Below are positions 28,044-44,270 of a DNA stretch of 64,000 bases, piece after piece; the stretch's first letter is position 1, and each line of letters opens with the position of its first letter. The position numbers and the translations under genes are program-made. Source of the stretch: Metallibacterium scheffleri (GTDB lineage Bacteria; Pseudomonadota; Gammaproteobacteria; Xanthomonadales; Rhodanobacteraceae); the NCBI RefSeq assembly GCF_002077135.1, contig NZ_LDOS01000002.1, positions 1 to 64,000 of the forward strand. Direction: 5' to 3'. Below the pieces are notes generated by a model. That model saw only the letters and a program-made list of their open reading frames with translations, was not told where the DNA came from and ran no database searches.

Positions 28044-29567
28044 ATGAATAAGCTTCATGATGCTGTTCGCATGGCTCTGGCAACCTCGTTGTCGGACCGC
28101 GCCATCGCTGCGGCGTTGGCAATGTCGAAAACGACCGTTCGTCGCTATCGATCCATCGCCGCCGTCAAGCAACTCAGTTGGGCTGATCTTTGCGCGTTGA
28201 CACCCCAAGCACTGGAAGCGCAGTTCAACGCGGCGGCCGGCCGCCTCACGACGAAGCGTGTGCCCGATTTCGCAACTCTTCACACGGAGATCGAAACCAA
28301 GGGCGTGACGCTGCAGCTGCTGTGGGAGGAATACCGCGCTCCCTCGCCTGACGATGCGTTGAGTTACTCGCAGTTTACGCATCATTACAGGGCATGGGCG
28401 CATTGCATGCACCCGGTGATGCGTCAGCACCACCGCCCGGGCGAGAAGGCGTTTGTCGACTATTCGGGCAAACGCCCAGTGTGGCGTGATCGGACAACGG
28501 GGCGGGACATTCCCGCCGAGCTGTTCGTCGGCGCGCTGGGCGTTTCGAGCTATGTGTTTGCAATCTGCACCGCCAGCCAATCCATCCCAGATTGGATCCA
28601 TGCCAGCGTCAAGATGCTGGAGTTCTATGGCGGTGTGCCCGAGATCATTGTGCCCGATAATTTGAAGTCGGCTGTCGAGAAGCCAGGCCGGTCCCCCAAG
28701 ATCCAGCGGACGTACTTGGACTTCGCACGGCACTACGCAGTGGCCATCATCCCGGCACGCGTCTATCGGCCGCAGGACAAGGCCAAGGCCGAGCAAAGCG
28801 TGCAGATGGCTCAGCGCTGGATCTTGGCGTGCATGCGTCACGAGACGTTCTTTTCGCTGGCGGATCTCAACACGCGCATCGCCGAGCTGCTGAAGGCGCT
28901 CAATCGGCGCCCTTACAAACGCTTGCCGGGCTGCCGGCGCAGCCGATTTGAGGAGCTGGATCAGCCCGCGCTCCACCCGTTGCCGACAGTGTCGTACGAG
29001 TTCGCCGAATGGGTCGCCCGCCAGAAGGTGCCCAATGATTATCACGTCAACGTCCGCGGCCATTTCTACTCGGTTCCCCACGTGCTGATCGACCGTCGCG
29101 TCGAAGTGCGTATCACGCGCTCGACGGTCGAAATCTTCTGCGATCAGGTGCGGGTCGCTACCCATGTCCTCAGCGATGTCCGTGGCGGCTACTCGACGCT
29201 GCCCGAACACCAACCCGAGGCACATCGCGCGCAAGCAGGGCGTACGCCCGAACGGCAACTGGCGTGGGCAGCGACGGTGGGACCGAATACCACAGCGGTG
29301 ATGCGCAGCCTGTTTGATCGGCGTTTGCCCGCGCTGGGTTTGCCAGCCGCCGACAAGATGCGCCGCCTGGCCACACAGTATGGAGTCGAGGAACTCGAGG
29401 CGGCCGCGCGGCGCGCGGTTGAGATCAAGTCGTTGACCGTGACGACACTGACTGCCCTATTGCGCACGGGGCTGCACAAGCGTCGCACAGACAGCACCTC
29501 AAGTTCACGCTCACTGCCGCTGCACGACAACGTGCGCGGTCCGGCCTACTACGGCAAGGGGGATTGA
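28044..29567 (+). CDS. istA: IS21 transposase IstA
   Basis: 507 residues from ATG 28044. An N-terminal HTH (SDRAIAAALAMSKTTVRRY) precedes the DDE integrase core: KAFVDYSGKRPVW, the VPEIIVPDNLKSAVEKPGR segment and ARVYRPQDKAKAEQSVQMAQ. The C-terminus has VPHVLIDRRVEVRITRSTVE, usual in IstA. It catalyses strand transfer and works with the IstB ATPase, whose start overlaps its stop by four bases. Confidence 0.95.
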   Translation: MNKLHDAVRMALATSLSDRAIAAALAMSKTTVRRYRSIAAVKQLSWADLCALTPQALEAQFNAAAGRLTTKRVPDFATLHTEIETKGVTLQLLWEEYRAPSPDDALSYSQFTHHYRAWAHCMHPVMRQHHRPGEKAFVDYSGKRPVWRDRTTGRDIPAELFVGALGVSSYVFAICTASQSIPDWIHASVKMLEFYGGVPEIIVPDNLKSAVEKPGRSPKIQRTYLDFARHYAVAIIPARVYRPQDKAKAEQSVQMAQRWILACMRHETFFSLADLNTRIAELLKALNRRPYKRLPGCRRSRFEELDQPALHPLPTVSYEFAEWVARQKVPNDYHVNVRGHFYSVPHVLIDRRVEVRITRSTVEIFCDQVRVATHVLSDVRGGYSTLPEHQPEAHRAQAGRTPERQLAWAATVGPNTTAVMRSLFDRRLPALGLPAADKMRRLATQYGVEELEAAARRAVEIKSLTVTTLTALLRTGLHKRRTDSTSSSRSLPLHDNVRGPAYYGKGD

Positions 29568-30331
29568 CCATGTTGAACCAACCGACGATGCAAGGCCTCA
29601 CCCGTTTGAAGTTGCACGCGATGGCAACAGCATTGGCGCAGCAGTTGGGATCGCCAATCACCCAGGAGTTGTCGTTCGAGGAGCGCTTTGGGATGCTGGT
29701 CGAGGCCGAGTGCCAAGCGCGCGAAAATCGCCGCCTGGCGCGCATTCTCAAGCAGGCCCATCTCAAGGTGCAGGCATCCTTGGAGGACATTGACTACGGT
29801 GCGCCACGTGGGCTGAAGAAGCCGGTCATTGCCAGTCTTTCGAGCTGCGCGTGGATGCGCAGCGGTCAACATTTGCTGATTACCGGGCCGACAGGGGTCG
29901 GTAAAACCTGGTTGGCGTGCGCCTTTGGTCACCACGCGGCGCGGCGCGGCTATACGGTCCTTTACGTGCGCCTGCCGCGCCTGCTGGAAGCGTTGGACGT
30001 GGCCCGTGCCAGCGGCGGCTTGCCCAAGCTGCGCGAGCAATTGGCCCACACGACGCTGCTGATCCTGGATGACTGGGCCGTTGCGCCGATGACGGACCAG
30101 GGACGTCAGGATCTGCTGGAGGTGATCGATGATCGCGCGGGCACGTCCGCGCTGATCATCACCTCGCAGGTGCCGGTGTCGGAGTGGCATGCGTATCTCG
30201 GCGAAGCGACGATTGCCGATGCCATCCTCGATCGCGTGGTCCATGCATCCCATCGCCTGGAGTTGAAAGGCGAATCGATGCGCAAGCTGAAAGCGGTCGG
30301 AGGCGTCTCGGAAACCTCGGCTGATCCGTGA
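29564..30331 (+). CDS. istB: IS21 helper ATPase IstB
   Basis: 255 residues. AAA+ ATPase with Walker A ITGPTGVGKTWLACAFGHHA and Walker B TTLLILDDWAVAPM. The N-terminal ERFGMLVEAECQARENRRLA is characteristic of IstB. It stimulates IstA and helps choose targets. Overlap with istA implies translational coupling. Confidence 0.95.
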   Translation: MTMLNQPTMQGLTRLKLHAMATALAQQLGSPITQELSFEERFGMLVEAECQARENRRLARILKQAHLKVQASLEDIDYGAPRGLKKPVIASLSSCAWMRSGQHLLITGPTGVGKTWLACAFGHHAARRGYTVLYVRLPRLLEALDVARASGGLPKLREQLAHTTLLILDDWAVAPMTDQGRQDLLEVIDDRAGTSALIITSQVPVSEWHAYLGEATIADAILDRVVHASHRLELKGESMRKLKAVGGVSETSADP

Positions 30332-30504: not shown

Positions 30505-30930
30505 CTAAGATGGTGTTGATCCAAGACCACTGCGCTCGCCCGCCTGCTCGACATCTACCGTCAGACCGCACGGCGGCGCTCCGCCGGCGGGGCACGTTCT
30601 CCGCGCGAGGCGCATCGGTGTCGGCGAGCAGGGCCCTGTCCGATGAGCAGGCGCACCTTCTGCAACCGCGGCGCGGACGGATCGTTGCCGATCACCTGCT
30701 CCACCAAGCGGCGCGGCGCCGCGAACGCCTACAGGAAGACGTAGACGGCCCGGGAAACCTTCAGGCGCGATGCGGACGCCGGTGCACGATGGCCACGTGC
30801 GACGCGCTTTGGCTCTCCAGCACCAGTTCATCGGAGAGCACGAATCGGCGCAGCAAGAGTTCCAGTCAGTCCACCACCTGCCGAGGGGGGGGCTGCCATC
30901 GTCGCGTGCAGCTCCGTCATCCCGCTTCCC
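30505..30930 (-). pseudogene. Degenerate coding remnant downstream of the M50 gene
   Basis: Just after the M50 stop, short frames read MTELHATMAAPPRQVVD, then LELLLRRFVLSDELVLESQS, then LVEQVIGNDPSAPRLQKVRL, with stops and frame changes between them. The order and spacing suggest one damaged gene of the same operon. I cannot name the family. Chance open frames in GC-rich DNA are the alternative. Confidence 0.35.
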
Positions 30931-30935
30931 ACCCG

Positions 30936-32237
30936 TCACGCGCCAGGCGGCAGCCGGGCATGAGATCGGGCGCCACAGAGCTTGGCGGCCAGGCCCAGCG
31001 ACGCCTTTGTAGCGCGGAACACCACCATGGCGGCACCGAAGATCAGCATCGTCCTCCAGCCGATCTCAAGCAGGGCCCGGAGGAATGCCAAGACAGGCAT
31101 GCCATCCGACGCCTGCTGCCAAAGGTCGTGCAGCATGGCGGGATAGCTCTCGGCAACGTTGAGCACCACGAGCTTGAACACCACCTTCACCAAGTAGGCC
31201 AGATACAATGTGCCGAGCACTGTGTAGGCGGTCAGTGCCCACTTGGCCCTCCGGCTGAGCCGGCTCAGCCCGGTCTGGTGGCCACCGAAGATCCGGGCGA
31301 GGATGTCCTGACCCCAGATCATCTGCTGCCTGCGCAGGTTCACGATACCGAAGAGGTCGCTCATCAGCCAGTAGCCATCCATACGAATGAACGGATTGAA
31401 CGTTGTCATGGCGATCGCGAAATCGTTCAAGACGAAGGCGAACAGGAAGATGCTGTTGCCCGTAAGCAGGTACAAGGCCAGCACGAGGACGAGGAAGAAG
31501 GACTGGAGGTACACGCCGCCGATGTCCACTATGGCGCGCTGCTGCCGAGGCAGCTTCCAAGCATCAGAGACGTCGGTCCACAATACGCTGTAAATCAAGT
31601 ACAATCCCCATCCGATAGTAATCTTGCGACAGCCGAAGTAGGCCGCTGCGCTGGCATGGCCGAATTCGTGGACAATCGCGCCCGCTGTGGATAGCAGCAG
31701 CAGGATCAGGATGCCTTGTGTGTCGAGTTGGCTGAAATCGAAAGCATTGGTCCGGAGCAGCATGCCGTACACGTAGACGTGTACGGCGACGAACACGAGC
31801 AGCCCGAGCAGCATGATTCCCCGCCGGAACAGGAAGCCCAGCCGCTTGGCGACCGGGTCGACCATGCCCGGCTTCATCAGGGGCAGCTTGATGTACAGGA
31901 ATGCCTGCCGGGGCTGGCTACTGATGGCCGCGCGACTGGGATCTTGATCGGGACGCACGAGGATGCCCTTGGGGAGCAGCGACTCGATCACCAAGCGGCG
32001 TAACCAGTCGCGGGGACGCGCGTCCGGCTCCTGCCGGAGAAAAATATCTATGGCCTCGTCGACACTGCGCGTGCCATCGAACGCCCGGACCAGCTCCATG
32101 TAGACCGCAGGTACGGCGAACCGGATGTGTCCGCCCTCGCTTGGAACAAGGCACAGCACCATCGGCCGGCTGGAATCCGAGTCAAACTCGGAGATCTCCA
32201 TCATGGGGTTCATGCGTGGTGAGAGATCGTTGCTCAT
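30936..32237 (-). CDS. M50-type (site-2-protease-like) membrane metalloprotease with PqqD-like N-terminus
   Basis: 433 residues from ATG 32237, with GGAGA upstream. Residues ~25-105 look like a PqqD/peptide-recognition fold: IRFAVPAVYMELVRAFDGTR, SVDEAIDIFLRQ, LVIESLLPKGILV. Several membrane segments follow. The zinc site HEFGHASAAAYFG lies in one of them near residue 190, and a later NPFIRMDGYWLMSDLFG fits the third ligand (M50 N-P-x-x-x-x-D-G type). Such proteins accompany peptide-modification genes and may cleave or export the product. It is the last intact gene of the minus-strand peptide operon. Confidence 0.82.
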   Translation of the reverse strand: MSNDLSPRMNPMMEISEFDSDSSRPMVLCLVPSEGGHIRFAVPAVYMELVRAFDGTRSVDEAIDIFLRQEPDARPRDWLRRLVIESLLPKGILVRPDQDPSRAAISSQPRQAFLYIKLPLMKPGMVDPVAKRLGFLFRRGIMLLGLLVFVAVHVYVYGMLLRTNAFDFSQLDTQGILILLLLSTAGAIVHEFGHASAAAYFGCRKITIGWGLYLIYSVLWTDVSDAWKLPRQQRAIVDIGGVYLQSFFLVLVLALYLLTGNSIFLFAFVLNDFAIAMTTFNPFIRMDGYWLMSDLFGIVNLRRQQMIWGQDILARIFGGHQTGLSRLSRRAKWALTAYTVLGTLYLAYLVKVVFKLVVLNVAESYPAMLHDLWQQASDGMPVLAFLRALLEIGWRTMLIFGAAMVVFRATKASLGLAAKLCGARSHARLPPGA

Positions 32238-32253
32238 CGATGTCTCCAGGAGC

Positions 32254-32472
32254 TCATGCAGTCAGGGCGTCGCCGGACGCAGCCCGTTTCCGAGGTGCGG
32301 GAGCGTGCTGCATCGGTGCATGGCTAGCTCGCATCCCGGCAACTTTGGGCGTTATAGCGGACGCAAGTTCGGTGCGATCCTCGAATTCGACGATCTCGAA
32401 TTCATCCACCAAGAAGGTTTCGTCGCGGTTGCGGTCGACCTGGCCGGTGGCGGTGCGCACTGCTTCGTTCAT
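32254..32472 (-). CDS. Precursor-like small peptide B
   Basis: 72 residues from ATG 32472; the ribosome site is weak. Residues ~20-36 (TFLVDEFEIVEFEDRTEL) match the block in peptide A (VIDEFEIIELEDRLEL). The C-terminal half is different, without Cys: ASAITPKVAGMRASHAPMQH, then basic residues. The shared block next to unlike tails is the usual pattern of a conserved leader and variable core. It ends 16 bases before the M50 start. It could also be a diverged or non-functional copy. Confidence 0.65.
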   Translation of the reverse strand: MNEAVRTATGQVDRNRDETFLVDEFEIVEFEDRTELASAITPKVAGMRASHAPMQHAPAPRKRAASGDALTA

Positions 32473-32539
32473 GAGTATGTTCTACAGCGACCCGTATGCG
32501 CTTCAGCGGAATCGAAGCGTGCGCGAAGACGAAGAAGAT

Positions 32540-32577
32540 GCGGTGGGATGGGTCGTATGGTGCATCCATCCCACCGC
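32540..32577 (-). terminator. Strong stem-loop between the two peptide genes
   Basis: GCGGTGGGATGG pairs with CCATCCCACCGC around a ~14-base loop, followed on the minus strand by ATCTTCTTCGTCTTC. It lies between peptide A and peptide B. It could be a partial terminator that gives more precursor than enzyme mRNA, or an mRNA stabiliser. Confidence 0.65.
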
Positions 32578-32632
32578 ACAGCCGGGATCCTAGGCGCCCC
32601 CGGAATCGGGGCTGACCGGTCCCGACTCATGG

Positions 32633-32794
32633 TTAGGCGGCGGCGCCGTTGCAGGAACCGTTGCAGCACTTCCAGAGCTCGAGGCGATCCTCGAGTTCGA
32701 TGATCTCGAACTCGTCGATCACCTGCGAGTTGTCCGCCTTGGCTTGGGTAATTTCGTTCTGGTTGCTGCTGTTAGCCATGTTGCTGTTAGCCAT
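32633..32794 (-). CDS. Precursor-like small peptide A, Cys-containing tail
   Basis: 53 residues from ATG 32794, behind a strong GAGGAGAG. The start is Asn/Ser-rich (MANSNMANSSNQNEITQAKA). The conserved block VIDEFEIIELEDRLEL follows. The tail is WKCCNGSCNGAAA, with three Cys. The leader-like acidic block plus a short Cys/Gly/Asn tail, between a radical SAM/SPASM operon and a protease, makes it the best candidate for the substrate peptide. No family name is claimed. A strong hairpin follows it. Confidence 0.78.
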   Translation of the reverse strand: MANSNMANSSNQNEITQAKADNSQVIDEFEIIELEDRLELWKCCNGSCNGAAA

Positions 32795-32940
32795 GGTTAC
32801 TCTCCTCTTGCTCAGGTTGAATGACGGGAACGGTTGCTCCATTGCTTCCATTCCCAGCTCGCGATGCACTCTATTCCCCAACACACTGCCGTCCGGTGCA
32901 TCAACGGACCGACAATTCCCTTTTCCGCTCGTCCAGGTAT

Positions 32941-34209
32941 TCAGGATTCCCGCCCGCAGATGGCGTTGCGCGCACCCAGCTGGCATACCAAGTCCCACAT
33001 CCGCGACCGTGCCGGTTCGACCTGATCGTCGAGCCAAGCCCGGTCGACACCGTCGCGATCCGGGGAAAGCCGCTCGACGAGCGCCTTCATCGCGGCGGGC
33101 ATGCGGTAGCAACGCTGGGTCTTCACGTCCGTCCACACGATTTCCTCACCCCGCGACAGCTCGACGATGCGGCTGACGTTGACGAAAAGGCGTCCGCCCG
33201 ACTCGAGGTGACGCGCCAACTGCTGCGCGACATCCTCCATCGGCTGCGGTTCCGAGTGACAGGGCACGCGCCATTGGTGGAACTGGCTGGCACCGCACCA
33301 CTCCGCGGCAAAATCCGTCAGCGCGTCGGCGAAGAACGCATAGGCCTGCTGGAGCGCTTCGCGCACGAAACGGTCGGCGACATCCCCAGCCAGCGGCCCG
33401 TCGGGATTGATCAGGTCACCTACCCGGCAACGGCGGCGGTCGCCTTCGCTGTAGGCGATGAGGGGCAGGATCGGCGCACCGAAGCGCGCTGCCATGCGGA
33501 TCAGGCCGTCCTTGACCCGCACATCGGTGCCTAGCAGGCGGACCGTGGCACGACGCACATTGCCGCGCGGACCATCGATGCCGGTGTTGCCGTCGATCGT
33601 CGAAAGCACGCATCCCCCGCGCGCCAGCGCCCGCGCTAGGGCGGTCGACTTGCCCTGCAGCTCGGCGTTAACGGTATGGAGGTGGCACCAGAACGCCGCG
33701 TCTGGATTCGCCTCGCGGGCCGAGGCATAGTCGTTGAAGCCGCTGGTCGCCAGCGGCACCCAACACTCAATGCCCGCATGCGCGATATCCGAAAGCATGT
33801 AGCGAAAGTGGCCGAGATGGAAGCTGGCGAGGACCAACCCCCGACCGTCGCCCAATAGCTGGCGGATGCGCCCGAAGGGCATGTCGTCGATCTGCGGCGT
33901 GTCGGCTTCCGGCCCTAGTTTCGGCAAGTAGTGATTGTGGTACTCCCATCCCGTCCACATATAGCTGATCGTCGCATCCCGGGCGACCTGCAGGACGTGT
34001 TGCCGCGACCAGTCGTCGCTGAACAGGGACATGATGTTCATGCGGAACGCACCGAGCCCGAATGGCATCAGCTCGTCGTCGCTCAGGGCATGGATCGCCG
34101 CACGCACTACGTCGCGGTCAGCGCCCGTGGTGACCAAGAGACTCTTCACTTGGGCCACCCGATCAGCCGCGTCGGGCGCGATCTCGTTCTGCCGTCCGAG
34201 GGTCGTCAT
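32941..34209 (-). CDS. LPLAT-like acyltransferase with PqqD-like C-terminal part
   Basis: 422 residues from ATG 34209, which overlaps the radical SAM stop by four bases (ATGA). This is why I prefer it to longer starts. Residues ~120-310 resemble lysophospholipid/lipid A acyltransferases: RGLVLASFHLGHFRYMLSDI, GGCVLSTIDGNTGIDGPRG and AARFGAPILPLIAYSEGD. The H-x4-D motif is not clear. Residues ~325-420 (GRLFVNVSRIVELSRGEEIV, WTDVKTQRCYRMPAAMKALV) look like a PqqD/peptide-recognition domain. A role in acylating the peptide, or in moving it to a lipid, is inferred from the operon. Protein of unknown substrate; the acyltransferase call is moderate. Confidence 0.6.
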   Translation of the reverse strand: MTTLGRQNEIAPDAADRVAQVKSLLVTTGADRDVVRAAIHALSDDELMPFGLGAFRMNIMSLFSDDWSRQHVLQVARDATISYMWTGWEYHNHYLPKLGPEADTPQIDDMPFGRIRQLLGDGRGLVLASFHLGHFRYMLSDIAHAGIECWVPLATSGFNDYASAREANPDAAFWCHLHTVNAELQGKSTALARALARGGCVLSTIDGNTGIDGPRGNVRRATVRLLGTDVRVKDGLIRMAARFGAPILPLIAYSEGDRRRCRVGDLINPDGPLAGDVADRFVREALQQAYAFFADALTDFAAEWCGASQFHQWRVPCHSEPQPMEDVAQQLARHLESGGRLFVNVSRIVELSRGEEIVWTDVKTQRCYRMPAAMKALVERLSPDRDGVDRAWLDDQVEPARSRMWDLVCQLGARNAICGRES

Positions 34210-34614
34210 GACCCGCTCTCCCTCAGCGCGGCCTCCGCAGGCAACGTTTCGGCGGCGGACGTCGGAACCCGCTCGGCTTTCTGCTTGGCCTTGAAGTACG
34301 CAGCCATCTCCTGCTTCGCGGTCCGGCGGATCTCTGGGCAGGGACGTTCGCCGGAGTCCATGCGGATCTGCGGGCAATGGATGCCTTGGCATGCCGGCAG
34401 CATGTGGCAACTCTGGCAGCCTTCGTCGCGCTCAAACGCCGGCTCGGTCCACAGCGCCATCTTGTCGATGTCCAGGTCGAGCTTTCCGTCCGCGGCCAGT
34501 TTGCCGACGAGGTTGCGATCCCTCTTGTCCAGATCGATGGTGCACTTCATCACGTCTCCATGCGCACCGATAATAAAGTTGGCTCGTCAGCGGAATCCGT
34601 GGGTGATTCCTGCG

Positions 34615-35064
34615 CTATCCGGCTGATGCCACCTCGCTCAAGAACCGGTACAGCTTTCTGCAGGTGCCGTCGAACGCATGTTGCTGGGCTTCGGTGATGC
34701 TGGGGTAGATCAGTGGGCCACCTTCGTCGTCAATGTAGTGGAGTAGCACGGCTGTTGGCGTCTTCATGCGCAGGCGCGGTTCGTCATGCAAGCGGCGCAC
34801 GAGTTCGCCGCCGAGCATCCAGAGATGATCGCGGTGACGTGCCAAGGTCTTTCGACTGAGGTCGGTTGCCAGCAGATGCTGCAGGAATGGCGTGAGCGCT
34901 TCCAGCACGTTGCGACCGAAGTCGATGTCGCCATCGTCAAAGCACCAGCGGTGCGGCCACTCGGAGAGATCGGGGCAGAGCTCGGCCAACATTTGATCGT
35001 CGGGTTGGTATGAAATAGCGGGTTTGCCGCCACCTGCCAGATTCGACCTCCCCATGTTGATCAC
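34615..35064 (-). CDS. Hypothetical protein carried by the ISL3 element, copy 2
   Basis: Same 149-codon frame as at 14796-15245 with identical translation, divergent from the transposase. Family unknown. Its conservation in both copies only shows that the copies are recent. Confidence 0.65.
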   Translation of the reverse strand: MINMGRSNLAGGGKPAISYQPDDQMLAELCPDLSEWPHRWCFDDGDIDFGRNVLEALTPFLQHLLATDLSRKTLARHRDHLWMLGGELVRRLHDEPRLRMKTPTAVLLHYIDDEGGPLIYPSITEAQQHAFDGTCRKLYRFLSEVASAG

Positions 35065-36301
35065 CCGCTTGCTGAATGCCTGTCACCACCATCCTGGTTT
35101 CGTGTATCAGGGTGCGCGCCTGCTCGAGGCCGAGAACACCATCGAGGTTGACGTGCGTCCTCGCCGCGGTTCGCGTCCGATCTGCTCGGGATGCGGAAAG
35201 CGCGGCAGCGGCTACGATACGCTGTCGGTGCGCCGCTTCGAGTTCATTCCGGTCTGGGGCTTCGCGGTGATTTTATTGTATGCCATGCGTCGAGTCGCCT
35301 GCCGTGGATGCGGCGTCAAGGTCGAACAGGTGCCCTGGGCGATTGGCAAGCACACGCTCTGCAAGGCGTACATGTTGTTCCTCGCGCAGTGGGCGCGCCG
35401 ACTGTCCTGGCGAGAAACGGCGGTAGCGTTCCGCACCAGCTGGGAAAAGGTGTTTCACGCCGTGGCATGGGTGGTCGAGTGGGGGCTGGCGCATCGCGAG
35501 TGGGGGCCGCTGCGTGCCATCGGCGTCGACGAAATCCAGTACGGCCGCGGCCACGCGTATCTGACGCTGGTCTACCAGATCGATGCCGGCTTCACGCGGC
35601 TGCTTTGGGTCGGCAAGGAGCGCACCACGGCCAGCTTCCAGCGCTTCTTTGACCTGATCGGCAAAGATCTCGCGGCGCGGATCGCCTTCGTCTGCTCGGA
35701 CATGTGGAAGCCCTACCTGAAGCTGATCGAGCAGAACTGCCCGAACGCACTGAACATTCTCGACCGTTTCCACGTCGTGGCGACGATCAACAAGGCGATC
35801 GACGAAGTGCGTGCCAACGAAGCCCGCCGGATGCACCAGGACGGCTATGAGCCTGTCCTGAAGAAGACCCGGTGGTGCGTGCTGAAGCGTCCGGGCAATC
35901 TGACGGGAAAACAGCGCGGCCGCCTGCGGGAACTGCTGAAGTACAACCTGAAGACGGTTCGCGCCTACCTGCTGAAGGAGGACTTCCAGAAGTTCTGGGA
36001 GTACGTGTCACCCACCTGGGCCGGCAGATTCCTCGATGAGTGGTGCACGCAGGTGATGCGCTCACAGATCGAGCCGATGAAGAAAGTCGCCGGCACGCTA
36101 CGCCGACACCACGAGCTGCTGTTGAACTATTTCCGCGCCCGCAAGCAGTTCTCCAGCGGCGTCGTCGAGGGGCTCAACAACAAGTGCAAAGTCACCATGA
36201 GAAAAGCCTACGGATTTCGGACCTTCAGGGCGACAGAAATCGCGCTCTATCATGTGCTTGGCAAGCTACCTGAGCCGAAGCTCGCCCACAGGTTTTGCTG
36301 A
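35024..36301 (+). CDS. ISL3-family transposase, copy 2
   Basis: Identical in translation to the 13559-14836 transposase, with the same zinc-finger-like N-terminus, DDE core and SGVVEGLNNKCKV signature. Intact. The identity of both copies points to recent activity in this genome. Confidence 0.95.
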   Translation: MPPPARFDLPMLITRLLNACHHHPGFVYQGARLLEAENTIEVDVRPRRGSRPICSGCGKRGSGYDTLSVRRFEFIPVWGFAVILLYAMRRVACRGCGVKVEQVPWAIGKHTLCKAYMLFLAQWARRLSWRETAVAFRTSWEKVFHAVAWVVEWGLAHREWGPLRAIGVDEIQYGRGHAYLTLVYQIDAGFTRLLWVGKERTTASFQRFFDLIGKDLAARIAFVCSDMWKPYLKLIEQNCPNALNILDRFHVVATINKAIDEVRANEARRMHQDGYEPVLKKTRWCVLKRPGNLTGKQRGRLRELLKYNLKTVRAYLLKEDFQKFWEYVSPTWAGRFLDEWCTQVMRSQIEPMKKVAGTLRRHHELLLNYFRARKQFSSGVVEGLNNKCKVTMRKAYGFRTFRATEIALYHVLGKLPEPKLAHRFC

Positions 36302-37475
36302 CGAGGCATAAAGTTGTATGGTCGCGCGGCGTAGCAAACCTCTGTGCCAAGCCCGATCTTAGGTTGCCAGCCGCCGGTGATGCGCAGGCCGAGCGACTGT
36401 GCGGCAATTTTCATCCGGGTCCGCACTACGTAGGATTCGTCGATGCCGCAGACCGACAGATTTGCGTCGTTGGCCCCGCCCCACTTGCCGGTTGCGTGGA
36501 AAGCCAGCTCGAACCGGTCGTCGTGGCTGAAGTGGGTGTACAGCAGACGCAGGAATGCCTCCAGGTGGGGCGCGTTCTCCGTGTCGAAGTTGACGCGGAT
36601 AACGACGGTGAAGTCTTCCTTGCGGGAACTCATGGCGACCAAGTTCTCGAAGATCCGCTGGAACGTGCTGCTGCCATCGCGCGCGGCACGACTACGATCA
36701 TGGTCCTCGGCTAGCCCGTCTAGGGTGATCTGGAAGTGCGTGATTCGCCACGAGAGCAGGCGGCCCGCGATCTCGTCGGTCAGCAGGTAGCCGTTTGTGG
36801 TCATATGGCTGAAGAAGTCGAGCCCGTGACGCTCTGCCACCTCAGCGAAGTACGGGGCCAGTTCCTCGATAGCCTCCAGCCCGTAGAGCGGTTCGCCGCC
36901 GAACCAGGAGACATTCAGTTCGCGCAGGACGTCCAGGCGGCTCTCGACTAGATTCCGGATGCCCGCGCGCACCTCGGGCCGCATCGTGCCTTTGCGGAAA
37001 TCCTCGTAGCAGTAGGTGCACCTGAAGTTGCAGTCCTCAGACGCGAGAAGGATCAGCTCCAGCTTGTCGTTGCGATGGTTCTCCTTGCCGAAGGCGTACT
37101 GGACCCTGCGCAGCTCGTCCGCCTCGCGCGGGACGAGATAGCCCCGCTCGGCCAGGTAGCTGACGATACTGTCGCACGCGCTGGATACGCCCTTTTGGCT
37201 GATCAGCTCGCGAATGGCCTCACGCTGGGACGGACGGAAGGCGTTCATGGCGCCGGTGTAGGTGTTCCAGAGCAGGAACCAGCCCTCGTCCGTGACCGTC
37301 TGGACGTTGAAGCGCGAGGGCTTCCAGTGACGCATGCCGGTCTCGTTGCGGTTCGCTGCGGACGCCGGTTCAGCCACCACCTCGATCGGGATTTGGTCGA
37401 GTGGTGACTTCGAGAGCAGATCGTTCATCGCGCCCATAATCCCTCCCTTGAGCAAGTTGCGAAATTCCCGCAAAG

Positions 37476-37679
37476 TCATGCGGTGAGCGGCTTCGGACGA
37501 AGCCTTCGTGCGCCGATGGCGGTGGTGGCCATCAGGGCGCCACGCTCACCACGAGCCAGCGCTATGGTGGCGTTGCGATGGATGTCCACGAGCAAGGCGT
37601 TCTGATGCGCTTGCAGCGCCTCCAACCGGAACGAACCGTCCGACTGCGTCATTCCTGCATCGTTGGCTGCTGCGCCCAT
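37476..37679 (-). CDS. Small hypothetical protein upstream of the radical SAM gene
   Basis: 67 codons from ATG 37679; an inner ATG (MTQSDGSFRLEALQ, with GCAGGA before it) is also likely. It includes LEALQAHQNALLVDIHRNAT and a basic tail. It ends 38 bases before the radical SAM start, on the same strand. It lacks the DEFEI block of the two peptides. It may be the first gene of the operon or a chance frame. Confidence 0.4.
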   Translation of the reverse strand: MGAAANDAGMTQSDGSFRLEALQAHQNALLVDIHRNATIALARGERGALMATTAIGARRLRPKPLTA

Positions 37680-38374
37680 CCGGGTTCCCCATGCGTGCTG
37701 AACTCCATGCGCGGCAGAAACACCTGACCCAATGCGCGAGTCAATACTTCGCGTCCATACACTTTCTCAAGGATTCAATGCGAGGATGAGCATTGACATG
37801 CAACGCCTTGCGAACTCGATGTTTTGCGCTGTGCAACGGCATCGGCGTCATTGCGTGGATGCGACAGAGTGCTGTCAGTCTGTGCTTACAGCGCGTAGGG
37901 CGCGACTGACGTAAGCTGCGCTCTGGCATCCGGACGTCTCCGAAATTGTTGTGTGTGAGCGGGTTTCGCTTTTTCTCCCGTGCAACACTGGCGTCGGTGA
38001 TCGTGGCCACCTGCGCCGCATCCATGGGCGCAAAATAGACATTCAAACACCGCAGCACCACATCCAATGCCGCGAGTCCACCGGCCTGTGTTAGATCCGC
38101 GCATCCCGCAGCGGCACTTGGCTCAACCGTCGCCAATCCACGCCAGCGCACAGCCACGCCTACTGTGCCGTGCACACCTCAGCGCCAGGCGGTGGCAGTG
38201 AAATGGCAATCGTGCAACCACCACGCGCGCTGCCGTGTGTCCGCTTTTACATCGCGATGTCCGATTGCGGACGCTGTCACGCGCTCGTGCCAAGCACTGC
38301 TTGCTGCAACCTGCTGATTGTTTGGCGCTCGTGTCAACGCCAACGCATGGCACAAACCTTGCGACTGGTACGGC
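37680..38374. other. Intergenic region between the peptide operon and the exporter
   Basis: About 700 bases between divergent genes, with promoters for both expected here. Open frames exist on both strands, but none resembles a known protein. GC content is a little lower than in the flanks. Confidence 0.5.
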
Positions 38375-39628
38375 ATGGATTTCCAGAACCTTGCGCTGAA
38401 AAAGCAGAAGCGCCGCCGCCTGTGGATCGCGGGCAGCGCCAGTGCGCTGCTCGTGCTGGCACTGGCCATCGGCATCGCGCGACTCGGCCCGGCGCTGCCC
38501 ACGGCACAGCGCGCCAATCTGTGGATCGGCACGGTGCGGCGCGGCGACCTGACCATCCACGTGCGCGCCGATGGCGTGCTGGTGCCCAGGCTCAGTCGCT
38601 GGATCGCCGCCGCGTCCGGCGCCGAGGTCGATCACATCCTGGTGCGCCCCGGCGCCAGCGTCGCCGCCGATAGCGTGTTGATGCGCCTGAGCAACCCCGA
38701 GGTGCAGGACCGCCTGAGCAGCGCGCAGGCCGGCGTGGCCGAGGCCGAGGCCGATCTGGCCGCCAAGCGCACGTCGCTGCAATCGCAGTTGCTGGACGAG
38801 CGCGCCGCGCTGGCCGCCGCGCGCGCGGCCTATGCCTCGGCCAAGATCAAGGTGGATGCCGATGCCACGGTGGCGGCCAAGGGCATCATCCCGATGGTGC
38901 AGTACAAGCAGAGCCTCATCGCGCTCAAACAGCTCGGCTACCGCGAACAAATCGAGCAGCAGCGCGTCGCCGTGTTCGGCAGCAACATCCGCGCGCAGCT
39001 CGCCGCGGTGCAGGCGGCGTTGCAACAGCAGCGCAGCAATCTGGCGCTGCGCCAGCGCCAGGTCGCCGCGCTCACGGTGCGTGCCGGCCTCGCCGGCGTG
39101 GTGCAGGAAATCGCCGTGCAGGAAGGCCAGCAGGTCGCCGCCGGCGCCAACCTGGCGCGCGTAGCCGATACGCGCAGCCTGATGGCGCGCCTGCAGGTGC
39201 CCGAGGTGCAGGCCAAGGATGTCGCGCTGGACATGCCGGTGAGCGTGGACACGCACGATGGCCTGATCGACGGCACGGTGACGCGCATCGACCCGGCCGT
39301 GCACGAGGGCAGCGTGCGCATTGAGGTTGATCTGCGCGGCAAGCTGCCGCCCGGCGCGCGGCCCGATCTCTCGGTCGAGGGCCGCATCCGCGTGATGCGC
39401 CTGCGCAACGTGCTGTGGGTGGGGCGCCCCGCGCTGGGGCAGTCCAACGCCACGATTTCGCTATTTCGCCTCAGCCGCGACGGCGACACCGCCACGCGCG
39501 TGCCGGTGCATCTGGGCGCGGCGTCGATCGATCGCGTCGAAATCCTGGCTGGCCTCGCCGCCGGCGATCGCGTGATCCTGTCCGACACCAGCGTCTGGGA
39601 CAAATACAACCGCATCCGCATTCAATGA
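38375..39628 (+). CDS. HlyD/MacA-like periplasmic adaptor protein
   Basis: 417 residues from ATG 38375 (MDFQNLALKKQKRRRLWIAG). One N-terminal membrane anchor (LLVLALAIGIARLGPAL) is followed by a lipoyl/barrel half (GDLTIHVRADGVLVPRLSRW). A long helical hairpin rich in A, Q, R and L comes next, with the second barrel half (GLAGVVQEIAVQEGQQVAAG) and a C-terminal beta-barrel. It links an inner-membrane ABC pump to an outer-membrane channel. The ATPase and FtsX-type permease follow, so the system is MacAB-like. The outer-membrane partner is not in the window. Confidence 0.88.
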   Translation: MDFQNLALKKQKRRRLWIAGSASALLVLALAIGIARLGPALPTAQRANLWIGTVRRGDLTIHVRADGVLVPRLSRWIAAASGAEVDHILVRPGASVAADSVLMRLSNPEVQDRLSSAQAGVAEAEADLAAKRTSLQSQLLDERAALAAARAAYASAKIKVDADATVAAKGIIPMVQYKQSLIALKQLGYREQIEQQRVAVFGSNIRAQLAAVQAALQQQRSNLALRQRQVAALTVRAGLAGVVQEIAVQEGQQVAAGANLARVADTRSLMARLQVPEVQAKDVALDMPVSVDTHDGLIDGTVTRIDPAVHEGSVRIEVDLRGKLPPGARPDLSVEGRIRVMRLRNVLWVGRPALGQSNATISLFRLSRDGDTATRVPVHLGAASIDRVEILAGLAAGDRVILSDTSVWDKYNRIRIQ

Positions 39629-39660
39629 CCCACCGCTTCCCCACGCCACCGGAGTCCGCC

Positions 39661-40425
39661 ATGACAACCGCCGCATCCGTGATCACGCTGACCGATGTAC
39701 GCAAGGTGTTCCAGACCGACGAGGTGGAAACGCACGCGCTCAGCGACGTGCACCTGGACATCCGCAAAGGCGAGTTCGTGTGCATCACCGGGCCGTCGGG
39801 CTGCGGCAAGACCACCTTGCTGTCCATCCTCGGCCTGCTCGATGCGCCCAGCGCCGGCAGCTACGAACTCAACGGCCACGCCGTGGCCACGCTGGGCCTG
39901 CGCCAGCGCGCGCGCCTGCGCAACGCCGAGATTGGTTTCATCTTCCAGGCGTTCAACCTGATCGGCGATCTGACCGTCGAGGAAAACGTCGAGCTGCCGC
40001 TGACCTACCGCAGCGGCATCGGGCGCGCCGAGCGTCGCCGCCGCGTGCAGGAAGCGCTGGAGCAAGTCGGCATGGCGCATCGCCTGCGCCACTACCCTGC
40101 GCAGCTTTCCGGCGGCCAGCAGCAGCGCGTGGCGGTGGCGCGCGCGCTGGTCGGCCAGCCCGCGATCCTGCTGGCGGATGAGCCCACCGGCAACCTCGAC
40201 TCGCGCAACGGCGACGCGGTGATGCAACTGCTCACCGAGCTGCACCGCAAGGGCTCGACCATCTGCATGGTCACCCACGATGCACGCTACGCCGCGCTGG
40301 CGCAGCGCAGCGTGCGCCTGTTCGATGGCCGCATCGTCGATGAGGACAGCTTCCAGCGCCTCACCCAGGAGGACACAGCGCGCCTCGAAGCCTTGGTGGA
40401 TCTGGGCACGGACGCGCAGCCGTGA
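39661..40425 (+). CDS. MacB/LolD-type ABC transporter ATPase
   Basis: 254 residues from ATG 39661 with CCGGAG upstream; an in-frame ATG at 39625 is also possible. Walker A GPSGCGKTTLLSILG, Q-loop FIFQAFNLIGDLTV, signature LSGGQQQRVAVARAL and Walker B ILLADEPTGNLDSRNGD. It provides the energy for the FtsX-type permease, whose GTG start overlaps its stop by four bases. Substrate unknown; peptide or antibiotic export is typical for the family. Confidence 0.92.
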   Translation: MTTAASVITLTDVRKVFQTDEVETHALSDVHLDIRKGEFVCITGPSGCGKTTLLSILGLLDAPSAGSYELNGHAVATLGLRQRARLRNAEIGFIFQAFNLIGDLTVEENVELPLTYRSGIGRAERRRRVQEALEQVGMAHRLRHYPAQLSGGQQQRVAVARALVGQPAILLADEPTGNLDSRNGDAVMQLLTELHRKGSTICMVTHDARYAALAQRSVRLFDGRIVDEDSFQRLTQEDTARLEALVDLGTDAQP

Positions 40426-42842
40426 ACTTCGGCGTGATTCTCAAGGAACTCTGGCAGGCGTGGCGCGCCAGCTTGCGGCGGCCCGGCTTCGTGCTGCTGG
40501 CGGGGCTGACGCTGGCGCTGGGCCTGGGGCTGTCGGTGGCGATGTTCGCGCTGGTGAATATGCTGGTGCTGGCGCCCCTTCCTTATCAACAACCGAACAG
40601 ATTGCTTGTCATTGGGACGGGACAGGCCGAGGAACTTCCCGCGCGCTGGTATGGCGCCATGCGTGACTTGCCCGCACTCATGTCAGTGGCCTACATCGGT
40701 GGGGAGAAGAACGCAAACCTGTCCTCCCCAGGTTTGCCGCCCGACCTAGTGACCGCACTGCCGGCCAGCCTGCATTTTCTGCCGACGCTCGGGGTGCGCC
40801 TGGTGCTGGGGCGAAATTTCAGTCACGCGGAGACTGTGCGCGATGGGCCGCGCGCGGTGATCCTCACCTACGGATTCTGGCAGAGACGCTTCGCGGGACG
40901 CGACAACGTACTGGGAAGCACGTTGCGGCTCGATGGGCGGTCCTACACGATCATTGGCGTGCTGCCCAAGAGCTTCCGCTGGGCGCAGTCTTTCAACCTG
41001 CTGGTTCCGGCCAATCTCCATCGAGCTGTTGGCAGGAATGAAAGTCTAGCTGTGTTTGGTCGTCTGCGCAGCGGTTCCACCGTACAGCAAGCAGGCATGC
41101 AGGCTGACGCGCGATTGCGGCACTGGTTGCAGGCGCACGGCCAGGATGAGTCCCGGCACGCGCAACTGAGTGCCAGGCTGCTGCCCGCCGCAATGGTGAG
41201 CGGCTACGCCAGCATCTTCGGCGTGATCATGGCCTGCACGCTGGCGGTGCTGCTGCTGGCGGCGGTCAACGTGACCAATCTGATGCTGCAGCGCGCGGTG
41301 CGGCATGGCCACAGCCAGGCCATCCGCAATGCCTTGGGCGCCTCGCTGCTGCGCGTGGCTCTGCCGATGTTGGGCGAAGGTCTGCTGATCGCTGTGCTGG
41401 GGGTGGCGATGGCCCTGGGCATTGCGCAGCTGGCATTGGTCTGGGCCAATGCCACGCTGATGCGGCCCGAGTGGTTTGCCTTCGTGCCACGCGTGCAACT
41501 GACGCCCAGCGCTTTCATACTGGGCGCTGCAGCCGGGCTGCTGGTGATGCTGTCCGCCAGTGTGCTGGCGCTGTGGCGCGCGCGCAGCAGCCAGGCCGTG
41601 CGCGAGCTGGTGGGCGGCGGACGCAGCGGCCAAACCGTGGGCGCCAGCCGGCTCAGTCGCGTGCTCGTGGTGGTGCAGGCAGCGCTGGGCATGACGCTGC
41701 TGATGGTGGCGCTGCTGTTTGCGCGCAGCCAGCAGGGGCTGGCTCATGCCGATCTCGGCATTCGGGTCGACCACGTCATCAGTACAACCATCGCACCCCC
41801 GTTATCGCTATATCCCAACGTGCAGGCCCTCAACACGCTGGCCCGGCAGGTGATCGAACGCATGCGCGCCATCCCGGGTGCGCGTTATGTCGGCGCACTG
41901 AACGTTTCTCCGGTCGGCGAGTACGTGCCACTGCGCCTGCAGAGTGGCTCGCCGACCGCGGAGTACGTCAACTACCAGTTCTTGCAGGGTGACCCGCTTC
42001 GTGCACTGGGTGCCCCACTGCTGCGTGGGCGCTGGTTCGACGCCAACGGCCACGCGGGCTCCGCCGCGGTCGCCATCGTCAACGAGGCCTTCGTCCAGAG
42101 GAACATGCATGGCAATCCGCTGGGACAACAGGTGCAATTCGACTTGCACGATTACGGCCTACCGGACGATGTGGTAACCGTGATCGGCGTCGTCGGCAAT
42201 ATCAAGACTTTCGGACCCAGCTATCCAGCGCCTGGCGCGGTTTACGTGCCGATGGCGCAGGTGCCGCCCAAGCTGCTGCCCAAGCTGATCAACCGGCTGC
42301 ATTTCGAGGCGGCAGTATCCGGATCGCCCGTAACGTATGCCGATGCGATGCGCCAAGCCGTTCATGCCGTGGCGCCCCAGTTGGCCGTGCAGCACGCACG
42401 ACCATTGACCGAGCGTGTGCGCAACTACTTTGCGCCACAACGCGTGATGGCCGAGATCATGAGCGCGCTGGCGGTGGTTGCGCTGCTGCTGGCCAGCTTG
42501 GGTCTGTACGCCGTGGTCAGCGTGGCCACGCAGGCCATGCGCCGCGAGTGGGGCGTGCGCGGTGCGCTGGGTGCCGATCCATTACGGCTGGTCGCCACCG
42601 TGTTGCGTGGTGGTCTGAGCCTGGTGGCCATCGGTGTCGTGGTCGGCCTTGCACTGGGCTGGGCCGCATCGCGCATCGTGCAGCACCTGCTGGCAGGCTC
42701 CGTGGCCAATGTCGATGCCCAGGTCGTTGTCGTGGCGGCGCTGGCGCTGACGCTGCTGCTGGTCGCCGGCACCTTGGCCTGCCTCGCCCCCGCCCTGCGC
42801 GCGGCGCGCACGCCGCCCGTGGCGGCGCTGAGCGATGACTGA
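40422..42842 (+). CDS. MacB-like FtsX-type ABC permease
   Basis: 806 residues from a GTG overlapping the ATPase stop. An N-terminal membrane segment (VLLAGLTLALGLGLSVAMFA) is followed by a periplasmic MacB core, then membrane clusters near 265-345 and 345-430 (LAVLLLAAVNVTNLMLQRAV). A second periplasmic core precedes the C-terminal FtsX block (VALLLASLGLYAVVSVATQA, MRREWGVRGALGADP). It has duplicated FtsX modules, as in large Xanthomonadales-type permeases. It works with the adaptor and ATPase upstream. Confidence 0.9.
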   Translation: MNFGVILKELWQAWRASLRRPGFVLLAGLTLALGLGLSVAMFALVNMLVLAPLPYQQPNRLLVIGTGQAEELPARWYGAMRDLPALMSVAYIGGEKNANLSSPGLPPDLVTALPASLHFLPTLGVRLVLGRNFSHAETVRDGPRAVILTYGFWQRRFAGRDNVLGSTLRLDGRSYTIIGVLPKSFRWAQSFNLLVPANLHRAVGRNESLAVFGRLRSGSTVQQAGMQADARLRHWLQAHGQDESRHAQLSARLLPAAMVSGYASIFGVIMACTLAVLLLAAVNVTNLMLQRAVRHGHSQAIRNALGASLLRVALPMLGEGLLIAVLGVAMALGIAQLALVWANATLMRPEWFAFVPRVQLTPSAFILGAAAGLLVMLSASVLALWRARSSQAVRELVGGGRSGQTVGASRLSRVLVVVQAALGMTLLMVALLFARSQQGLAHADLGIRVDHVISTTIAPPLSLYPNVQALNTLARQVIERMRAIPGARYVGALNVSPVGEYVPLRLQSGSPTAEYVNYQFLQGDPLRALGAPLLRGRWFDANGHAGSAAVAIVNEAFVQRNMHGNPLGQQVQFDLHDYGLPDDVVTVIGVVGNIKTFGPSYPAPGAVYVPMAQVPPKLLPKLINRLHFEAAVSGSPVTYADAMRQAVHAVAPQLAVQHARPLTERVRNYFAPQRVMAEIMSALAVVALLLASLGLYAVVSVATQAMRREWGVRGALGADPLRLVATVLRGGLSLVAIGVVVGLALGWAASRIVQHLLAGSVANVDAQVVVVAALALTLLLVAGTLACLAPALRAARTPPVAALSDD

Positions 42843-42863: not shown

Positions 42864-44270
42864 ATGACACCACGCCCGCCCCGCGCCCGCGAAACCACGG
42901 TATTGATCGCCGACGATCAGCCCGACGTGCGCGCGGCGCTGCGCCTGCTGCTCAAGTCCGAGGGCATCGCCAGCATCGCTGCCGAGGGCGCGCAGGCGGC
43001 GCTGGACGCCGCGCGCAGCCGCGAGCTGGCCTGCGCGCTGATCGATCTGAACTACACCCGCGACACGACCTCGGGCGCGGAAGGCCTGGCCCTGCTGGCG
43101 CGACTGCGCGAGCAGGCGCCGGAGTTGCCCATCGTGGTGATGACGGCGTGGAGTAGCGTGCCGCTGGTGGTCGAGGCGATGCGCCGCGGCGCCAGCGATT
43201 TCATCGAGAAACCCTGGGACAACGCGCGCCTGCTGGCGGTGCTGCGCGCGCAGATCGCGCTGGGCGAGGCCGCGCGCCGTCAGCGCCGGTTGGAGGCCGA
43301 GAACGCGCTGCTGCGCGGCGATGCCATGCCGGGCTTCGTCGCCGAATCGCCGGCGATGCGCAAGCTGCTGGACATGCTGGCGCGCGTCGCGCCCAGCGAC
43401 GCCAACGTGTTGGTGCTGGGCGAGAACGGCACCGGCAAGGGCGTGATCGCGCAGCAGTTGCACGCGCGCTCGACGCGCGCGGCGCAGGCGTTCATCAAGG
43501 TCAACATGGGCGGCATCGCCGAAAGCGTGTTCGAGTCGGAAATGTTCGGCCACGTGCGCGGCGCCTACACCGACGCGCGCAGTGAGCGCATCGGCCGCTT
43601 CGAGCTGGCCGACGGCGGCACGTTGTTTCTCGACGAGGTGGGCAATATTCCGCCGGCGCAGCAGGCCAAGCTGCTGCGCGTGCTGGAGGACGGCGAGTTC
43701 GAGCGCCTGGGTTCCTCGCGTACGCAGCATGCGGACGTGCGCCTGATCGCGGCGACCAATGCCGATCTGGCCGCCGCGATCGCCGCGGGGCGCTTTCGCA
43801 AGGATTTGCTGTATCGCCTGAACACACTGGAGATCCACCTGCCACCGCTGCGCGAGCGCCGCGAGGACATCGTGCCGATGGCGCGCAGTTTTCTCGCCGC
43901 CAGCGCGCAGCGCCATCAGCGCACGGACATGCGCCTGGCCGTGGATGCCGAGCGCGTACTGCTGGCCTACGCCTGGCCGGGCAACGTGCGCGAACTGCGC
44001 CATGTCATGGAGCGCGCGGCGCTGTTGTGCCCGGCCGGCGTGGTGGATGCCGCCGCGCTGTCGCTGGGTACGGCGGCCGCCGCCGCCGATGCCGTCGAGC
44101 AGATGACGCTGGAGCAGGCCGAGGCCTGGCTGGTGCGGCGCGCGCTCGAACGCCATGCGGACAATCTGCAGGCCGCCGCGGATGCGCTGGGCATCACCCG
44201 CCAGGCGCTGTATCGGCGCATGGAAAAACACGGCTTGCGCGATGCCGGCGATGTCACCGCCAGCGAATGA
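42864..44270 (+). CDS. NtrC-family response regulator with altered GAFTGA loop
   Basis: 468 residues from ATG 42864. Receiver domain: VLIADDQPDVRAAL, the phospho-Asp in CALIDLNYTRDT and the Lys in FIEKPWDN. AAA+ domain: Walker A LGENGTGKGVIAQQL, GGTLFLDEVGNIPPAQQAKL and the R-finger region. The sigma54 contact loop reads GAYTDA instead of GAFTGA. The C-terminal Fis-type HTH is LQAAADALGITRQALYRRME. It probably controls the exporter genes upstream with the kinase that overlaps its end. Confidence 0.9.
   Translation: MTPRPPRARETTVLIADDQPDVRAALRLLLKSEGIASIAAEGAQAALDAARSRELACALIDLNYTRDTTSGAEGLALLARLREQAPELPIVVMTAWSSVPLVVEAMRRGASDFIEKPWDNARLLAVLRAQIALGEAARRQRRLEAENALLRGDAMPGFVAESPAMRKLLDMLARVAPSDANVLVLGENGTGKGVIAQQLHARSTRAAQAFIKVNMGGIAESVFESEMFGHVRGAYTDARSERIGRFELADGGTLFLDEVGNIPPAQQAKLLRVLEDGEFERLGSSRTQHADVRLIAATNADLAAAIAAGRFRKDLLYRLNTLEIHLPPLRERREDIVPMARSFLAASAQRHQRTDMRLAVDAERVLLAYAWPGNVRELRHVMERAALLCPAGVVDAAALSLGTAAAAADAVEQMTLEQAEAWLVRRALERHADNLQAAADALGITRQALYRRMEKHGLRDAGDVTASE

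Follow-up and report, generated by a model that had tools for sequence, protein, structure and literature searches.

Between positions 37437 and 30936 on the minus strand of the window (the whole stretch of 64,000 nucleotides analysed here, from contig NZ_LDOS01000002.1 of Metallibacterium scheffleri) lies a run of genes that we read as the damaged copy of a pathway for a lipidated ribosomally synthesized and post-translationally modified peptide (RiPP). We hold it to be fairly probable that this pathway represents a new class, one that would follow the logic of the selidamides with an LPLAT-fold enzyme replacing their GNAT acyltransferase. The gene set is apparently rare and undescribed: an earlier note on this DNA, made from the sequence alone, knew of no pathway with exactly this set, and a literature search (titles and abstract openings, with most subscription journals not covered) likewise found, among the papers listed, none describing it. 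We also know of no other such pathway that uses an LPLAT (lipid-A-type acyltransferase). Across 12 loci, the window and 11 others from the same class, an M50-type protease, an LPLAT-like protein and precursor peptides with a shared leader motif recur together. The corresponding features of the window, with the radical SAM maturase that precedes them, are as follows.

36308..37437, minus strand: N-terminal part (radical SAM domain) of a radical SAM/SPASM maturase, with its ATG at 37437 (PF04055, E 4.4e-16)
34206..34580, minus strand: SPASM (Cys-rich) C-terminal part of the same maturase (TIGR04085, 21.7 bits, cut-off of 27 not reached)
32941..34209, minus strand: LPLAT (LpxL/HtrB-like) acyltransferase-like protein, 422 residues (hhalign against LpxL/HtrB-type proteins; PatA match; alignment A1)
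32633..32794, minus strand: precursor peptide A, 53 residues, with a leader ending DEFEIIELEDRLEL and the core WKCCNGSCNGAAA (leader-motif precursors in relatives)
32254..32472, minus strand: precursor-like peptide B, 72 residues, with the leader block retained and a tail without Cys
30936..32237, minus strand: M50-type membrane metalloprotease, 433 residues, with HEFGH and NPFIRMDG (NF041824 and NF058609 below cut-off)

The single-strand order given in the earlier note (radical SAM/SPASM protein, LPLAT-like protein, peptides A and B, protease) is borne out, and the stop/start overlap and short gaps that it described measure, after the maturase, −4 (the LPLAT start overlaps the SPASM stop), 146, 160 and 16 nucleotides. 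The genes that it presented as an operon are real, but the SPASM gene is cut by an ISL3-family element, and what the window shows is a damaged fragment.

The searches for relatives covered genome samples within the window's phylum, one contig scan with the M50 protein and one plasmid search. A single-protein search with the LPLAT-like protein in 398 genomes of the order (E 1e-5) gave eight carriers, including the window's genome, and profile A1 was built from eight LPLAT sequences. This profile matched 12 of 233 genomes of the taxonomic family at E 1e-7, eight of them above 70 bits; 40 of 398 genomes of the phylum at E 1e-6, where only the window's genome and G985 exceeded 70 bits; 1 of 197 genomes of the order of G985 at E 1e-12; and 2 of 234 genomes of the class at E 1e-12. 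Eleven genomes reach at least 70 bits in at least one LPLAT search, eight from the same family (G000, G526, G430, G406, G1086, G532, G595 and G548), two from the same order (G385 and G309) and one from the same class (G985); eight of the 11 score high by construction, since their sequences make up A1. The earlier note had made its reading depend, beforehand, on the peptide block keeping company with these enzymes in other genomes, and all 11 LPLAT carriers have an M50 homologue at most about 1.3 kb away and, close to it, one or more leader-motif precursors. In the reverse direction, an M50 profile matched 41 of the 233 family genomes at E 1e-10, and when only matches above 140 bits were examined (those at or below 112.1 bits being left out), nine of nine adjoined an LPLAT homologue. 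This search supplied the twelfth locus, L088 of G1121, where the LPLAT match is weak (32.5 bits). The second match in the class, G150 (51.8 bits), and also G811 (44.8 bits), were excluded from the protein family because neither an M50 match nor a leader motif lies nearby (within 9-16 kb), and the phylum matches below 70 bits resemble common LpxL/HtrB proteins in the length of their frames, the one checked being PF03279. The plasmid collection gave no LPLAT match, a single-protein search of 274 class genomes matched the window's own genome only, and the M50 scan of the contig collection gave four distant loci (L011-L014), none with an LPLAT match at E 0.01.

Precursors were sought with the leader pattern LE[DEQS]R[LIVT]E[FLM] followed by 8-70 residues, which has 23 matches in the 12 loci (256 kb), 19 within the drawn gene runs and four outside (two in L018 at about 15 kb and two immediately ahead of the L088 cluster). 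In 20 mononucleotide shuffles, which make a weak null, the mean number of matches is 0.0. These are short encoded peptides with a conserved leader and variable cores beside maturases. All 23 tails contain Cys, seven of the 23 contain neither Lys nor Arg, and two tails occur twice, in L016 and L017. The cores of L015, L016, L017 and L065, which we refer to as the close relatives, share [AS][DNG]RCNGRC. The block that the earlier note saw in both window peptides is present, though its wording differs from the actual DEFEI[IV]E[LF]EDR[LT]EL; the three-Cys tail that it reported for peptide A is found at the end WKCCNGSCNGAAA. Peptide A is without both core Arg of its relatives, which would fit the loss of arginases in the window. 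Peptide B reads FEDRTEL, misses the leader pattern and has no Cys; it is probably degenerate, and two Cys-bearing precursors occupy its position in L016, L017 and L065. Two leader-motif peptides in L018 (L018:15077, minus, and L018:15423, plus) lie on opposite strands about 6 kb from the cluster of G385, which suggests stand-alone precursors. L088 carries three precursors with ESVA... tails ahead of the protease, and a 248-residue protein (L088:6099-6845, minus) between the protease and the LPLAT-like gene.

To judge by profile comparison, the LPLAT-like protein has the LpxL/HtrB fold. The 11 family members align by hhalign with 15 LpxL/HtrB-type proteins at a probability of 99.1 (E 8e-19, 248 columns); another A1 hit of the LpxL/HtrB kind, when checked, is PF03279; and in a profile search of the PDB, the only solved structures with a meaningful sequence match are those of PatA (5f2t, E 3.3e-6 over the whole sequence and 3.5e-4 over the best stretch). 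LPLAT enzymes have the catalytic motif HX4D/E. Its His is invariant in all 11 members, and 10 of them retain E183 and the DGN block (within the eight A1 sequences, H131 and DGNxG are invariant); the acid is replaced throughout, by Arg in 10 members (HX4R, as in the window protein) and by Trp in one (HX4W). This replacement makes activity uncertain, and we regard the protein as likely to be catalytically active.

Enzymes of the LpxL family take acyl donors carried on acyl carrier protein (ACP), and the best evidence that the LPLAT-like protein would lipidate a peptide is what appears to be a private acyl-ACP supply adjoining such a homologue in one locus of the twelve, L063 (G985). The whole run there lies on a single strand, with gaps of −23 to 60 nucleotides except one of 229. 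It begins with an M50 protease, an arginase with a fused N-terminal extension, the LPLAT-like protein, a glutaredoxin, two precursors with SCTRCC cores and a HlyD/ABC/FtsX exporter. After the exporter, with gaps of −11 to 27 nucleotides, follow a ketosynthase, a MaoC-like dehydratase, an ACP (PF00550), a TauD-family protein and a ketoreductase. Upstream of the protease by about 2.7 kb, past a gene on the opposite strand, is a 4'-phosphopantetheinyl transferase. No radical SAM match was found in L063 (absences of radical SAM, arginase and fatty-acid genes, here and below, are those of tblastn or profile searches at set thresholds over 14-19 kb stretches, with ACP never a query). Directly ahead of the protease is a 73-residue protein with a signal-peptide-like start and a Cys near its end (L063:13869-14090, minus), for which tblastn at E 1e-8 gave nothing in the other loci.

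The conserved and replaced residues of the LPLAT-like protein also bear on a rather unlikely alternative, in which this protein is an altered scaffold and no acyltransferase, bringing the peptide (perhaps also a lipid) to the membrane protease, so that the product would be a peptide without lipid, cross-linked through Cys and, in some lineages, containing ornithine. The loss of the HX4D/E acid in 11 of 11 members fits this, as does the fact that the system already contains pseudo-enzymes (arginase-like proteins without metal ligands) and has fatty-acid genes in one locus only. Yet the conservation of the His in 11 of 11 and of E183 and DGN in 10 of 11 seems a stronger constraint than a purely passive scaffold would call for, and the ACP and fatty-acid genes stand within the L063 gene run itself.

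The M50 protein is predicted to be the leader protease. Its metal-site columns are invariant in eight of eight sequences, and HExGH and NPFxRxDG are intact in the window. The window protein scores 115.8 bits with NF041824, the daptide protease family (cut-off 300), and 30.8 bits with NF058609 (cut-off 225), and its L016 homologue scores 86.9 bits with NF041824, again short of the cut-off. The intact L016 maturase likewise stays below the cut-off of TIGR04463 (rSAM_vs_C_rich; 200.9 bits against 525). No NCBIfam model reaches its cut-off for the cluster's seven window open reading frames (ORFs) or for 10 system proteins of the relatives, in line with the earlier note, which knew of no described pathway with this exact set. 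Of the enzyme set proposed there, the LPLAT-like protein, the protease and the precursors do recur, but the radical SAM gene is optional, being present in six of the 12 loci, with a shortened C-terminal Cys-rich part in the L066 copy. The PqqD-like character of the protease head and LPLAT tail is weakly supported: neither has a Pfam match, a genome-wide search with PF05402 gave two weak matches elsewhere and none above the cut-off, and six internal profile comparisons are weak (at best 63% probability, between the protease head and an arginase-like head, and 0.3-39% for the others), so that a PqqD origin of the extra domains could not be established.

In the four close relatives, whose genes are intact, the genes of the window type form the first half of a longer cluster (gene lists from tblastn with L065 proteins and the TauD protein of L070). 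All four have two FtsX permeases ahead of the radical SAM gene and, after the protease, two pairs of pseudo-arginase and arginase, the first pseudo-arginase being RRE-like, with a cupin-type oxygenase between the pairs; a TauD-family oxygenase is also present in all four (L069, L070, L071 and L072). Three of them, L015/L072 being the exception, have an ATP-grasp protein and another cupin as well. The families assigned in these clusters are PF00491, PF13621, PF02655 and PF02668. PF00491 was found in L063 and L065, with arginase homologues in L015, L016 and L017, and at E 0.01 this is the sole family matched by the four arginase-family proteins scanned (one from L063, three from L065). The Mn-site motifs GGDH, DAHTD and DxD are kept in the L063 fusion, in two free-standing arginases of L065 and in the one examined from L016, and are lost in the three aligned pseudo-arginases of L065 and L016, which suggests an adaptor paired with a catalytic partner. 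The close relatives, all four, have two arginases and, in RCNGRC, two core Arg, and L063 has one arginase and, in SCTRCC, a single core Arg; in all, arginases occur in five of the 12 loci, besides the scrap in the window described below. A rule that every core Arg is paired with an arginase fails for L021 and for one L018 core, and a count of one cupin per core Arg fails in L015, which has two core Arg and one cupin. Beside the cluster of G1086, L065:15873-17984 (minus) encodes what we take, from the appearance of its sequence, to be a TonB-dependent-receptor-like protein, possibly serving uptake or immunity. The earlier reading of the enzymes as a peptide pathway is supported, but the arginases, oxygenases, ATP-grasp protein and one locus's fatty-acid genes, which are what renders the chemistry interpretable, lay beyond its view.

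In the pathway that we propose, the leader (ending E-L-E-D-R-L-E-L or similar) would recruit the maturases, several of which have an additional small domain, possibly one that binds this leader. In the fullest clusters the radical SAM/SPASM enzyme would, judging from its family, make Cys-based cross-links in the RCNGRC core, the PF00491 arginases, whose catalytic motifs are observed, would convert core Arg to ornithine, and the cupin and TauD oxygenases would carry out hydroxylations. The LpxL/HtrB-like enzyme would move an acyl chain, probably from acyl-ACP, to the core, the M50 membrane protease would remove the leader, and FtsX/MacB-type transporters would export the peptide. In the RCNGRC clusters a core of about 15 residues would be acted on by a radical SAM enzyme, by paired arginases, by oxygenases of the cupin and TauD types and, in three of the four, by an ATP-grasp protein. 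By comparison of the loci, the minimal kit is precursor, LPLAT-like protein and protease, which makes cleavage of the leader and acylation of the core the likely common steps; the radical SAM enzyme and the arginases are, on the same comparison, lineage additions or losses. We infer both the acyl transfer and its acceptor from sequence: the common acceptor is more likely a core Cys or the new N-terminus, because seven of 23 cores lack Lys and Arg and all 23 have Cys, and the ornithine side chain is a possible acceptor in the arginase-bearing clusters only. A narrower definition, which we offer tentatively, would have the class consist of an LpxL/HtrB-fold enzyme acylating the conserved core Cys or the N-terminus freed by the protease, with arginases, hydroxylases, radical SAM and, once, fatty-acid genes added by lineage. 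Such acylation, if true, would be a ribosomal-peptide counterpart of lipoprotein maturation.

The cores also speak to a strictly selidamide-like scheme, which we consider improbable, in which the acyl chain goes to the ornithine delta-nitrogen, and clusters without arginase acylate lysine or are inactive. Arginase, an iron/2-oxoglutarate (Fe/2OG)-type hydroxylase and an acyltransferase together do recall the phaeornamide logic, as set out in the available part of its description (PMC9505594), and five loci have arginases and an Arg adjoining Cys in the core; set against this, seven of the 23 cores are without Lys or Arg although the LPLAT-like protein and the protease are retained, and no arginase match was found in six of the 12 loci.

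Several observations weigh against the lipidated RiPP pathway as we propose it. The carriers are related, and the co-occurrence counts are not independent events. Radical SAM genes are absent from six of the 12 loci and arginase matches from six, the window having only a probable scrap; L021, with two core Arg, and one Arg-containing L018 core have no arginase match, and L015 combines its two core Arg with a single cupin and no ATP-grasp match. The domains that would bind the leader are weakly supported. As for the acyltransferase, Pfam does not call the window protein, the 15 LpxL/HtrB-type proteins in the fold comparison were themselves chosen as hits of A1, the acid of HX4D/E is replaced, and fatty-acid genes were found in one of 12 loci (tblastn with L063 queries, ACP not being queried elsewhere).

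The remaining features of the window concern its mobile elements and a neighbouring exporter.

34581..36307, no strand assigned: ISL3-family element, 1727 bp, inside the maturase gene (NF033550 above cut-off; ends inspected)
30564..30865, minus strand: probable remnant of the N-terminus of an RRE-like pseudo-arginase (three pieces in different frames, from profile matches)
28044..30331, plus strand: istA/istB pair, presumably of IS21 type (ORFs 28044-29567 and 29564-30331)
38318..42842, plus strand: divergent MacAB-like exporter (HlyD, ABC ATPase, FtsX permease), candidate export module (similarity to the L063 exporter)

The pathway in the window is broken by these elements. The ISL3 element, with its transposase at 35024-36301 (plus) and short, near-matching terminal inverted repeats, is flanked by an 8-bp direct repeat (34573-34580 and 36308-36315), and the genome holds four full-length copies, all 100% identical; together with the 8-bp repeats, these identical copies make the insertion, which disrupts the maturase gene, look recent. 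Apart from this split no further lesion was noticed in the two halves of the maturase: the N-terminal part, truncated by the insertion, is 64-65% identical to the intact homologues of L015, L016 and L017, and the C-terminal part 74-82%. Inside the element, a 149-residue ORF beside the transposase (34615-35064, minus), a possible passenger gene, matches nothing in Pfam or NCBIfam at E 1. Downstream of the protease, the IS21-type pair, so labelled from the appearance of its proteins and not from a family search, occupies the site where the relatives carry the downstream cluster genes. Between the two, 30564..30865 is probably a scrap of the gene that follows the protease in the close relatives: three profile matches are collinear (model positions 10-32, 34-49 and 52-82), with i-Evalues of 0.12, 4.7 and 7.5 that are individually insignificant, no frame anywhere in the window scores better than that of the first piece, and the place is that expected from the relatives; a BLAST search of this remnant was not convincing. 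A cupin query gave no match in the window's genome, in a search without a positive control there. The frames of the LPLAT-like protein, the protease and peptide A are open, and the window copy is probably a damaged, non-functional fragment. That the window genes are nothing but a decaying relic, without present function, in a strain that makes nothing is very improbable as an account of the system: the split maturase, the IS21-type pair in place of the downstream genes, the loss of two core Arg in peptide A and of Cys in peptide B, and the negative cupin search favour it, but it applies to this strain alone, is compatible with the lipidated RiPP reading, and has against it the three open frames and the uncontrolled cupin search.

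The end coordinate 37679 in the earlier note probably does not hold; it was set by a 67-residue ORF (37476-37679), which probably lies outside the system, since tblastn (E 0.01) matched it nowhere in the 11 loci L011-L021, four of them the distant M50 loci. The MacAB-like exporter shares 25% (HlyD), 53% (ABC ATPase) and 24% (FtsX) identity with the exporter inside the L063 cluster, and is by this similarity a candidate only. Directly after it lie ORFs that we take to be an NtrC-like response regulator and a histidine-kinase-like protein (42864-45591, plus), which may control it.

Ribosomal peptides are rarely fatty-acylated, and in the literature compared, so far as the available parts of the sources go, the enzymes that acylate them are of the GNAT type. 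If an LpxL/HtrB-type enzyme plays this part, it would be a second, unrelated solution and would open a way to genetically encoded, reprogrammable lipopeptides; since intact clusters are among the loci, the idea is directly testable. No GNAT was found among the Pfam-scanned proteins, which are part of the genes in the loci, and the acyltransferase candidate is the LpxL/HtrB-like protein. Compared with LpxL/HtrB and PatA (PF03279), this protein has the same fold by profile comparison and retains the His of HX4D/E, but has Arg (10) or Trp (1) for Asp/Glu, a C-terminal extension and a RiPP gene context. The epipeptide (EpeP/YydH/LiaK) and daptide systems likewise place a membrane HExxH protease beside a small precursor, and theirs are the two NCBIfam families that the window protease matches, with scores far below the cut-offs; only the M50 protein was compared. 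According to the available portion of a further source, M50 proteases serve epipeptides and pearlins (PMC10885120).

Lipidation itself is known from the lipolanthines, goadvionins and lipoavitides, some of which are joined to polyketide or fatty-acid synthase products; as far as their accessible descriptions go, these differ in being acylated at the N-terminus, in belonging to class III lanthipeptides and in using GNAT-type enzymes (PMC13060382, PMC9505594), and lipidated lanthipeptides are described as acylated by GNATs (PMC13060382). The enteropeptins, in the part of the source consulted, combine a Cys-derived ring involving a neighbouring Arg with an arginase, KgrD, which belongs to PF00491 (peptide arginases being mostly PF12640) and acts beside that ring; N-methylated ornithine and the producer Enterococcus cecorum are their own, and that part of the source mentions no acyltransferase or M50 protease (PMC12703449). 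Enteropeptins are characterized by a radical SAM enzyme, a PF00491 arginase, an ornithine N-methyltransferase and a thiomorpholine product; L015, L016, L017 and L065 have a radical SAM gene and arginases. The closest parallel in overall logic is with the selidamides (phaeornamide, kamptornamide), which, in the portions of the literature available, bring together an arginase that yields ornithine, an Fe/2OG-type hydroxylase, a fatty acyltransferase and an exporter in one cluster (PMC9505594, PMC13060382, PMC12703449), the phaeornamide pathway having an arginase, a hydroxylase and a GNAT acyltransferase (PMC9505594). By the same partial accounts, the selidamides have GNATs, PF12640 (OspR-like) arginases and NHLP/Nif11 leaders, with a lanthionine synthetase in the described lanthipeptide members; the four arginase-family proteins scanned from L063 and L065 do not match PF12640. 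The clusters described here instead have an LpxL/HtrB-like protein and an M50 protease, and often a radical SAM enzyme; their leader is short and acidic, and their arginases belong to PF00491 and are accompanied by pseudo-arginases.

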